This document shows positions 2,416 to 9,083 of a stretch of 41,128 bases of DNA, piece by piece (the first letter of the stretch is position 1; each line of letters begins with the position of its first letter). The translations under genes and the position numbers were made by a program. Source of the stretch: a virus; the IMG/VR virus record IMGVR_UViG_3300013104_000042, positions 1 through 41,128 of that record. The stretch is one strand, 5' to 3'. The notes under the pieces are model-generated. The model saw only the letters and a list, made by a program, of their open reading frames with translations. It ran no database searches and had not been told where the DNA came from.

Positions 2416-3204
2416 CTACCTTTCTATTGTTACGTTAATCACATTGAATATTTGCTTCACTTCATCTAAGCTGTATTCTTTATCAGGATAGACCCTTTTG
2501 TTGGGATTTAAAGAGTGAAGTGTTATTAATCCGTTTTCTACATCGTGGTGTATCAATCTCTTTATTACAATACCATCCTCAAGGACTACAATAAAATCGG
2601 GCCATTTATGATTGTGGAATTTGCTATTCCAAAGATGTCTGCCAACTTCCCTACCCGTTACGGTAGATCCATGCGGTATACTTTCCTTAGACATTTCTTC
2701 TGTCGTATAGTTTTCCATGCTGTCGCCAACGGCCTCGAATGCAACATAATTGCCGCTATGGATCTTGTCCACAATAATCGAGTGGTAGTCTAAGGTTTCT
2801 ATAAACTCAGGATCTGACCATCCATGCGCATACCCCATTCTGGCCTGTTCTGGAACCTTCCGGATTGTCATCAGCAACTTACCATTACCAAGTTCGACGA
2901 ACTTAGCGTTGTTTTTGTTTTGATATACTTCTAGGGGATCGTTAGTCTGTGTGATCAATTTTGCATTGCTTTCAGGCAAAAACATTTCTCCTTCGCCAGT
3001 TGATAGCCACCTTCTGTTCACATTAAATGTATCTTCTAGTGATAAATATATCGCTGGTGATATATTTTTCTTGCCATTTTCGATATCTGAGACGTAGCTC
3101 TGAACCATTCCGGCTTGCTTAGCGAACTCTTTTTGTCCTAAATCAAGCATTTTCCGAACTAGTCGAAATCTTTTTGAAATTTTTTCTAATTGATTATCAG
3201 TCAT
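2416..3204 (-). CDS. CI-like repressor, XRE HTH plus S24 peptidase
   Basis: A 262-aa master lysogeny repressor. Residues about 5-65 form an XRE HTH (GQKEFAKQAGMVQSYVSDIE). The C-terminal LexA/S24 fold carries Ser162 in VGDSME and Lys215 in IVIKRL, the serine/lysine dyad for RecA-stimulated self-cleavage. The expected Ala-Gly scissile pair aligns with Met123-Gly124 in QARMGYAHGW, which is unusual. About 53 residues separate Ser and Lys, longer than typical, because of an insertion after the Ser motif. It is transcribed divergently from the early operon across 66 bp that hold two palindromic operators. Confidence 0.9.
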   Translation of the reverse strand: MTDNQLEKISKRFRLVRKMLDLGQKEFAKQAGMVQSYVSDIENGKKNISPAIYLSLEDTFNVNRRWLSTGEGEMFLPESNAKLITQTNDPLEVYQNKNNAKFVELGNGKLLMTIRKVPEQARMGYAHGWSDPEFIETLDYHSIIVDKIHSGNYVAFEAVGDSMENYTTEEMSKESIPHGSTVTGREVGRHLWNSKFHNHKWPDFIVVLEDGIVIKRLIHHDVENGLITLHSLNPNKRVYPDKEYSLDEVKQIFNVINVTIER

Positions 3205-3271
3205 TTAACTAAATAAATATATCTATGTATATATTTTATATATAAATATATCTACAGATATATTATATTTG
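3205..3271. promoter_or_regulatory. Repressor/early divergent promoter with two operators
   Basis: Operator 1 (3215-3236) is AAATATAT-N6-ATATATTT. Operator 2 (3245-3264) is a perfect 20-bp palindrome with arms AATATATCT and AGATATATT. Their centres are 29 bp apart, near three helical turns. The rightward -7 box TATATTTG (3264-3271) abuts operator 2. A 7/8 match to the -7 box for the repressor gene (TATATTTA, minus strand, 3214-3221) overlaps operator 1. Repressor binding would therefore control both directions. Confidence 0.75.
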
Positions 3272-7588: not shown

Positions 7589-8401
7589 ATGAACATTTAC
7601 AGCCTTAGCAGATACTTTTGGGATTTCTCTTTTGAGAATCCGGATCTTATTAAGCCTACTCACATAGGTATATATTTTTTCGCTATAGAGCATTGTAACC
7701 GTTTAGGGTGGAAAGATAAGTTTGGTTTCCCTACATCAATGGTAATTGAAGCAATAGGGGTTAAATCGTACTCTGTCTATAAAAAACATTTTGATGATTT
7801 AGTTGAATTCGGATTTATTGAAGTACATGAGTATTCAAAAAATCAGTGGTCAAGCAACATAATTGCTTTGAAAGAAAATTGCAAAGCAGATTGCAAAGCA
7901 CTTGATAAAGCACTTACAACGCACACATCAAAGCAATCGGAAAGCACACACGAAAGCACTGATCAAAGCACCAATAGTATAGATATACAAATTTACAATT
8001 CTACAAATCTACAAACTTACCAATCTACAGAGGTAAAACCGGAGCCTGCTCCTGAGATACTCTTGAATTATTCCTTCGATGATTTTTGGGATGATTACGA
8101 TAAAAAACGGGGCAAAAAAGAAAAGTTAATCCCCAAGTGGGAAAAACTAAAAGATTCCGATAGGGAAGAAATTCGAGACTACATCCCTAAATACAAATTG
8201 GCTCAACCGAACAAAAAATTTAGAAAAGACCCCGAAACATTTATAAACAACCACAGCTGGAAAGACGAATTAATTTTTGAGAACGATGGAAAATCAGGAA
8301 ATACAATTGAAGCAAAGCGAACAGAACGTGTTGAGCTTGCTAACTTCGCCGGACAAGTACTTGCAGACATTGCGGCCAAACACCGCATTGGATGTTCTTA
8401 A
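7589..8401 (+). CDS. Phage replication initiator / replisome organiser
   Basis: A 270-aa protein with an N-terminal winged-helix region (about 1-95, containing THIGIYFFAIEHCNRLGW and VKSYSVYKKHFDDLVEFGFIE), a low-complexity Ser/Thr/Gln linker (about 105-148), and a C-terminal basic helical domain (SFDDFWDDYDKKRGKK ... KFRKDPETFINNHSW). The architecture matches phage initiators that bind the origin and load the helicase. The linker coincides with a dense array of DNA repeats (7883-8033), so the origin probably lies in the gene as in lambda O. The last 116 nt overlap the next gene. Confidence 0.75.
   Translation: MNIYSLSRYFWDFSFENPDLIKPTHIGIYFFAIEHCNRLGWKDKFGFPTSMVIEAIGVKSYSVYKKHFDDLVEFGFIEVHEYSKNQWSSNIIALKENCKADCKALDKALTTHTSKQSESTHESTDQSTNSIDIQIYNSTNLQTYQSTEVKPEPAPEILLNYSFDDFWDDYDKKRGKKEKLIPKWEKLKDSDREEIRDYIPKYKLAQPNKKFRKDPETFINNHSWKDELIFENDGKSGNTIEAKRTERVELANFAGQVLADIAAKHRIGCS
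7883..8033. repeat. Candidate replication origin: iterons plus 8-bp AT-rich repeats
   Basis: AAAGCA occurs at 7883, 7895, 7907, 7930, 7941, 7953 and 7965, with a variant AACGCA at 7918: eight sites at 11- or 12-bp spacing. They fall in all three codon phases, so protein coding does not explain them. Directly after, TAC starts at 7986, 7994, 8002, 8010, 8018 and 8026, an exact 8-bp period (consensus TACAAATC, about 75% AT). Iterons beside an AT-rich repeat tract are the layout of theta origins. Confidence 0.7.
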
Positions 8402-9083
8402 AAGCTCATCACCATCGTTTGCGTTGATCCGGGCAACACTTAAAGAAGATGGTCAAACAGCAGTAAAAGCGATTCTTTCAATTCTGGTAACGGATGTAGT
8501 TAATTTTCTGAGTGTCGGCAAAACAATGAATGCTGACCAGGTAATGAAAACCGTTGAGCTAATCCTTGAAGATTACAGTCACTTAAAGCCAGATGATTTT
8601 AAATTATGTTTTAACAGGGCCAAAAAAGGCTATTTCGGCAAGTCCTATGACCGGATAGATGGCATGGTAATTTTCGAATGGTTACAGATGTACGAGTTTG
8701 AAAAATCCGACGAAATCGAACACTACAGAGCTAAGGAAAACCTTTTGTTTAAAAAGCAAGCCTCTGAATTACCGACTGAACAAGAAATTGAACAAGCGGT
8801 TTCTATGCCTGATTGGTTCAAAGAGGGAATGAAAAAAATGTTCGAAAAAAAGACTGTAGTTGAAGCTACTGAGATTCGAAAACCACATCCGGTGAACGAT
8901 ATGGTGCAGGGATGGGTCACCAGGTTTAGAGAAATAAATTTCGAGCAGGAAGATCCAAAAAAGCCAACAAGGTTTATCAAAAAATACGGTAGACATTTCG
9001 ATATAAACGAATACCTCCAGTACAAACAGGATCAGTACAATAGAATCATCGAATACCATGAAAACCTACCATTCGATAAATAA
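8286..9083 (+). CDS. Replication-module protein (DUF6633-like)
   Basis: A 265-aa protein with the block LKPDDFKLCFNRAKKGYFGKSYDRIDG, which resembles the Bacteroidota DUF6633 family. It is all-helical with a basic C-terminus (KKPTRFIKKYGRHFDINEYL). It follows the initiator and overlaps it by 116 nt in another frame, the place where helicase loaders (lambda P type) are encoded. No Walker motif is present, so if it is a loader it is a non-ATPase one. The start at ATG 8286 is preferred over TTG 8277. Confidence 0.6.
   Translation: MENQEIQLKQSEQNVLSLLTSPDKYLQTLRPNTALDVLKSSSPSFALIRATLKEDGQTAVKAILSILVTDVVNFLSVGKTMNADQVMKTVELILEDYSHLKPDDFKLCFNRAKKGYFGKSYDRIDGMVIFEWLQMYEFEKSDEIEHYRAKENLLFKKQASELPTEQEIEQAVSMPDWFKEGMKKMFEKKTVVEATEIRKPHPVNDMVQGWVTRFREINFEQEDPKKPTRFIKKYGRHFDINEYLQYKQDQYNRIIEYHENLPFDK

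Follow-up and report, generated by a model that had tools for sequence, protein, structure and literature searches.

The DNA between positions 7,883 and 8,033 of a phage genome very probably serves, judging from its sequence, as a theta-type replication origin embedded in the linker-coding part of the phage's initiator gene. The window, meaning the whole stretch analysed here, is a virus record of 41,128 bases. HK97-type capsid and portal matches together with an integrase gene indicate a tailed, probably temperate phage. The closest named relatives are the Polaribacter phages Danklef_1-5 and a gene in a Sphingobacteriaceae genome, and there are additional matches in Sphingobacteriaceae genomes. 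Given these nearest relatives, the host would be a member of the Bacteroidota. Upstream of the initiator gene lie one gene resembling exonuclease VIII and one with weak similarity to SSB. Elsewhere in the window, an AT-rich 29-bp tandem repeat (3213-3268) separates a repressor gene (2416-3204, minus strand) from a divergent regulator at 3271 (plus strand), and this region is probably the immunity operator. The features of the initiator locus are listed in Table 1.

Table 1. Features of the initiator gene and its embedded arrays, in window coordinates
Feature	Position	Strand	Basis or remark
Replication initiator gene, 270 aa	7589..8401	+	phrog_270; AlphaFold model; helicase/primase neighbours of homologues
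Winged-helix DNA-binding domain, aa 1-94, predicted iteron reader	7589..7870	+	AlphaFold model; PDB fold matches
Degenerate iteron AAAGAA	7871..7876	+	in register, 12 bp ahead of first exact iteron; L002 has one too
Iteron 1, AAAGCA	7883..7888	+	codon phase 0
Iteron 2, AAAGCA	7895..7900	+	codon phase 0
Iteron 3, AAAGCA	7907..7912	+	codon phase 0
Iteron 4, AACGCA	7918..7923	+	one mismatch, in register; codon phase 2
Iteron 5, AAAGCA	7930..7935	+	codon phase 2
Iteron 6, AAAGCA	7941..7946	+	codon phase 1
Iteron 7, AAAGCA	7953..7958	+	codon phase 1
Iteron 8, AAAGCA, last	7965..7970	+	codon phase 1; start 11 bp before anchor
Anchor AGTATAGAT	7976..7984	+	fixed distance from last iteron; opens AT-rich region
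Second array, six TAC units, putative DNA-unwinding element	7986..8033	+	8-bp steps
C-terminal domain (cluster C1), an exchangeable module and putative contact for helicase/loader	8051..8398	+	77% identity to L005; cluster assortment
DUF6633-like gene (phrog_35728), positional helicase-loader candidate	8286..9083	+	116-bp overlap with 3' end of initiator; PF20338 E=1.2e-5, narrowly missing the curated cut-off

The protein is taken to be an initiator because of its phrog_270 match, the DnaB, primase or helicase genes that neighbour it in relatives, and its winged-helix model. The profile match to phrog_270, 'replication initiation protein', covers residues 63-228 (E=7.5e-15); no family in Pfam (E<=0.1) or NCBIfam was matched. 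In the AlphaFold model, residues 1-80 have block-mean pLDDT values of about 87-97, and the winged helix has the secondary structure H3-16 H23-38 E45-48 H49-56 H61-74 E77-81 E89-94. Most of residues 120-159 are disordered, and the C-terminus is helical at moderate confidence. The arrays encode about residues 95-149, that is, the linker between the N-terminal and C-terminal domains. A Foldseek search of the PDB with the model gave zero matches at E<=0.001. MarR-type regulators rank first by E-value, and the low-rmsd matches include a plasmid initiator (4pt7) and a Rep-DNA complex (5kbj), with rmsd 3.3-3.8, TM 0.53-0.55 by target length and weak E-values of 0.087-0.11. Since the E-values are weak and MarR-type regulators score better, the fold by itself is no proof of an initiator. 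A PDB sequence search with the initiator returned nothing useful and no match to 4pt7 or 5kbj. The winged helix is predicted with good confidence to read the iterons.

The slot after the initiator gene holds replication functions in many relatives, which are referred to below by locus number where needed. A DnaB helicase gene follows in L131 and L135, a primase/helicase gene in L160, L194 and L206, and a member of a helicase-like ATPase family in L158 and L185; the window and L002 have the DUF6633-like gene there. Because the same slot holds DnaB or primase/helicase in relatives, the DUF6633-like gene is a candidate helicase loader, a role that we assign to its protein tentatively.

The initial annotation described eight AAAGCA-type sites at 11-12 bp through all three codon phases, and this description holds, with seven exact AAAGCA copies and one AACGCA. 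The steps are 12,12,11,12,11,12,12 bp, and the codon phases run 0,0,0,2,2,1,1,1. The iterons are direct, head-to-tail and non-palindromic, with the consensus YAAAGCAM. Outside this array, neither strand of the 41 kb window has AAAGCA pairs at iteron spacing, and the 47 kb Danklef genome has none outside its own array.

The array is shared by relatives. The initiator of L002, 83% identical, has one extra iteron through a 12-bp difference and an identical phase path. In Danklef_1 the winged helix is 71% identical and the C-terminus is different; all nine of its sites are exact AAAGCA (9/9) and the spacing series is similar. The Danklef_1 gene (MT732458.1, 29039-29929; in L003 and L389) is annotated 'transcriptional regulator'; it is probably a replication initiator with an embedded origin, and the annotation is probably misleading. 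A search of viral contigs with the winged-helix alignment alone, linker excluded, found at least 521 confirmed relatives. Intact initiators lacking the repeats, which had been named at the outset as evidence against an origin, could be looked for in this set. Among the best 80 of these at least 521 relatives, which are those closest to the window and were found with a seed alignment made from loci originally located through the AAAGCA pattern, all 74 unique sequences carry 4-9 exact AAAGCA copies per linker, against a background of 0.15 copies in 260 bp of the remaining gene sequence. Their phase order is nearly always 0 -> 2 -> 1. A few distant relatives are ambiguous. In 110 non-redundant winged helices, a set that includes loci found through the AAAGCA pattern, 103 arrays exceed all eight of their own synonymous recodings under a simple periodicity detector; the other seven are L197, L326, L280, L083, L320, L322 and L295.

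The AAAGCA pattern alone is unspecific: in 66 of 120 loci from the pattern scan, neither a window-type winged helix nor a window-type C-terminus could be detected in the ORF that spans the pattern, and most of these resemble one-frame KA/AK-rich proteins. L078, L046 and L074 have unrelated N-termini and linkers with their own AAAGCA-like 11-12 bp repeats (AAAGCACAAYR x5 in L078), which could be independent cases or mere low-complexity peptide. L288 and L289 are distant winged-helix genes of 441-466 aa whose long Gly/Ser-rich linkers are unlike those of other relatives, and the periodicity detector picked up no convincing array in them. An initiator-like gene in Riemerella phage CRP34 (L390, about 2290-2430) encodes a winged helix about 31% identical to that of the window, and its linker has 12-bp GATACAGTTTCT/GATACGGTTCTT repeats followed by TAAAC-type repeats. 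It is probably the same architecture with a different iteron word. In Marinitoga phage MPV1 (L391, about 1730-1890), a gene annotated as a DnaD-like replication initiation protein has CAACAGCAACG-type linker repeats and then AAAGATAATAAAGATA repeats, which suggests that the layout extends past Bacteroidota phages. A search of PLSDB plasmids with the winged helix gave no match.

The iterons end at a fixed distance from the anchor, which has the near-invariant consensus AGTATARAT across relatives. The start of the last AAAGCA lies exactly 11 bp before it in 54 of 54 anchored genes, 2 of the 56 genes being without an anchor under the search pattern used. The anchor codons are also fixed: Ser is AGT in 51/51 and Ile is ATA in 53/53, compared with about 41% ATA elsewhere. 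The 11-bp junction (GCA to anchor) is retained in most of the anchored types whose word is not AAAGCA. An AT-rich tract had been reported to adjoin the iterons as an unwinding element. The tract is borne out, with AT content rising from 55% in the 20 nt before the anchor to 81% in the 20 nt after it, and its unwinding role is putative; against a gene-wide AT content of about 70%, this peak is a modest one.

The second array follows in this tract. It had been described as six exact 8-bp repeats starting with TAC. The TAC and the 8-bp step are indeed exact, but the 8-mers at 7986-8033 (TACAAATT, TACAATTC, TACAAATC, TACAAACT, TACCAATC and TACAGAGG) share nothing else, so 'exact repeats' is too strong. 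For the window gene taken singly, comparison with synonymous recoding gives a 5-unit run only borderline significance (P about 0.06). The TAC 8-mers are the local version of a family-wide WAC[A/C] array. In 53 genes, WAC[A/C] chains average 4.58 units, compared with 1.13 under synonymous recoding, and they occupy all three codon phases; of 226 steps from one unit to the next, 196 measure 7 or 8 bp. Autocorrelation rises above the recoding null at lags of 7 (z = 13.5), 8 (z = 17.7) and 16 (z = 11.7). The second array is clearly under DNA-level selection across relatives, and it is probably the unwinding element.

An arrangement of this kind might also be an operator, with the initiator binding the arrays to repress transcription or block elongation of its own operon while replication starts elsewhere. 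The protein does have a winged helix whose fold many MarR-type regulators match, its nearest named-phage relative carries a regulator annotation, and sites within a gene could serve as roadblocks. Against this, 4-9 sites and an AT-rich second array at a fixed distance exceed the needs of an operator, and helicase or primase genes directly follow the initiator gene. An operator in place of an origin is very unlikely, and autoregulation and origin function may coexist. Plasmid iteron arrays can also function in partition and incompatibility. There is a slim chance that the initiator reads the arrays as another cis site, for partition, incompatibility or packaging; the linked helicase/primase genes and the adjoining AT-rich second array suit initiation best.

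The earlier proposal of selection on the DNA, central to the initial annotation, is upheld by codon usage. In 56 non-redundant relatives (winged-helix DNA less than 85% identical), linker codons switch with iteron phase. Lysine is AAA in 164 and AAG in 2 of the linker KA pairs, whereas in KH/KQ pairs it is AAG in 103 and AAA in 1; outside the linker, AAA accounts for about 79% (1056 vs 287). The Fisher P for lysine is 1e-71, a value that assumes an independence which related genes do not have. Alanine is GCA in 161/166 linker KA pairs vs 7/27 KA pairs elsewhere, and serine is AGC in 115/130 linker ES/QS pairs vs 13/67 elsewhere. The base before the iteron is T in 26-32% of cases in phases 0 and 2 and never in phase 1, where a TAA stop would arise and G is found in 38%. 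Between the window and L002, codons at unchanged residues are identical at 29/32 positions in the iteron part and 12/12 in the second array, compared with 51/84 for winged-helix residues and 65/88 for C-terminal ones. The codon choice obeys the iteron, not the protein.

These data bear directly on whether selection acts on the linker as a low-complexity peptide (KALDKAL..., ESTxQST...), the DNA period being secondary. Linkers do have peptide repeats, and the array is single-frame in several distant relatives; however, the peptide varies with phase while the DNA word stays constant. When the window peptide was held fixed and codons were drawn from the other window genes in 20,000 draws, recoded sequences had a mean of 1.19 exact sites and a maximum of 6, and the observed 7 was reached in 0/20,000. 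A protein repeat as a sufficient explanation is ruled out by the phase-dependent codons, and we give it next to no probability. A functionless minisatellite made by replication slippage has an equally negligible probability: the 12-bp difference between L002 and the window indicates that units expand and contract in frame, but the identity of cores (90-98%) versus spacers (33-47%) within arrays contradicts slippage and rules out fresh tandem duplication, diverged genes agree in their 12/11 series of spacings, in the order of phases and in the 11-bp junction, and the iteron sequence follows the winged helix.

This last association holds across the family. L005 combines a C-terminus 77% identical to that of the window with a winged helix that is only distantly related (E=1.2e-20); the word in its linker is GAACCTC-like, at 11-12 bp. 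Other distant winged helices are accompanied by the words GGCAC, RGGCAC, CAAGCACTGATA, YRGCAYTG or ACCTC, again in steps of 11-12 bp. Loci chosen for a similar C-terminus and having an unrelated N-terminus contain no AAAGCA array (0-2 copies). On a tree of the 110 winged helices described above, iteron type requires 16 changes vs 25.7 when shuffled (minimum 23), and C-terminal cluster requires 57 vs 58.7. The iterons thus travel with the winged helix, and C-termini shuffle freely. We give an even chance to a broader reading, in which a family of Bacteroidota phages has a portable origin cassette consisting of the winged helix, its cognate three-frame iterons, the 11-bp junction and a strand-specific melting ruler of 7-8 nt. 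Winged helix and iterons would diverge in step, forming a recognition code. Behind the origin, the C-terminal domains that recruit the helicase would recombine freely, so that exchange would have its boundary at the origin itself and reader and sites would stay joined.

Initiation at such an origin can be pictured as follows. Winged helices would bind the iterons as a head-to-tail row, and the fixed end of the row would place the initiator on the AT-rich element. This element would melt, and the WAC[A/C] units of one strand might then be held by the initiator, as in RK2 or F; by analogy with these plasmids, such one-strand capture is about evenly balanced. The disordered linker may leave the C-terminal domain free to bring in the helicase or loader specified by the neighbouring gene. 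GC skew is uninformative as an origin marker, since almost all genes of Danklef share a strand.

In-gene origins are known in other systems. In lambdoid phages (lambda, P27 and 933W), the origin lies in the middle of the initiator gene, with iterons and then an AT-rich tract in the coding sequence; lambda has 4 iterons and Stx phages have 6, bound by O dimers (PMC7466680). The initial comparison with lambda O stands for the layout, which includes a second replication gene next to the initiator, but not for family membership, since the initiator lacks a Pfam match and its iterons are different. Those of lambda O are longer and partly palindromic, whereas the window family has 4-9 direct words of 6-8 bp at an 11-12 bp pitch and adds an ordered second array at a fixed distance. 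In pSK41/pTZ2162 Rep, an N-terminal winged helix binds Rep boxes located centrally in rep, and the C-terminal domain is separate and host-specific (PMC5703833). pSK41 has four Rep boxes, the origin-encoded linker is dispensable for Rep function, and in the hybrid pPR9 the N-terminus and origin were swapped together (PMC5703833). As in RepA_N plasmids, the origin in the window family encodes the linker between the winged-helix N-terminus and the C-terminal domain; unlike them, it belongs to phage genes and combines 4-9 iterons with a second array of 7-8 bp units across a fixed junction. On the side of the fold, the resemblance to the N-terminal domain of pSK41/pTZ2162 Rep comes down to the PDB entries 4pt7 and 5kbj, whose low rmsd goes with E-values of about 0.1. 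The RepA_N domain PF06970 has no match in the initiator. The window family appears to resemble lambda O and RepA_N in its working, and its Pfam and PF06970 results and its different iterons give no ground for placing it in either. With in-gene origins known for lambda O and the RepA_N plasmid pSK41, the suggestion of a 'new origin type' went too far.

Other likenesses are more limited. In RK2 (TrfA) and F (RepE), the initiator binds duplex iterons and one strand of the unwinding-element repeats, and the RK2 13-mers have the consensus TAAACnTTnTTTT (PMC4081077). This consensus resembles ATAAAC in the second array of the window family. The second-array unit is 7-8 bp here, compared with 13, and the entire origin lies inside the initiator gene. 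DnaD-like initiators such as that of Marinitoga phage MPV1 have a weakly similar winged helix (29%) and a linker of short repeats, with a gene for DnaB helicase nearby, but different repeat words (inspected by eye). What is new in this family is a short iteron array running through three frames, a junction of exactly 11 bp and a second array of 7-8 bp pitch, together with family-wide evidence for reader-site linkage while C-termini shuffle. The literature covered, which was partial and included few subscription journals, held no description of an origin in this initiator family, and the portions of the Danklef isolation paper available to us mention no replication origin.

To our knowledge, most uncultured tailed phages have no known origin. 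In the present family, the origin can be read directly from the gene in more than 100 phages, and the isolated Polaribacter phage Danklef is open to a direct test. The family offers a natural data set of paired DNA-binding domains and sites, and the fixed 11 bp and 7-8 nt pitch provide a geometric hypothesis of strand opening. The arrangement also explains recombination inside the initiator gene, in which reader and sites stay linked and the helicase-contacting half is exchanged. Finally, it is a clean example of two codes on one stretch of DNA, with codons visibly following the DNA word.
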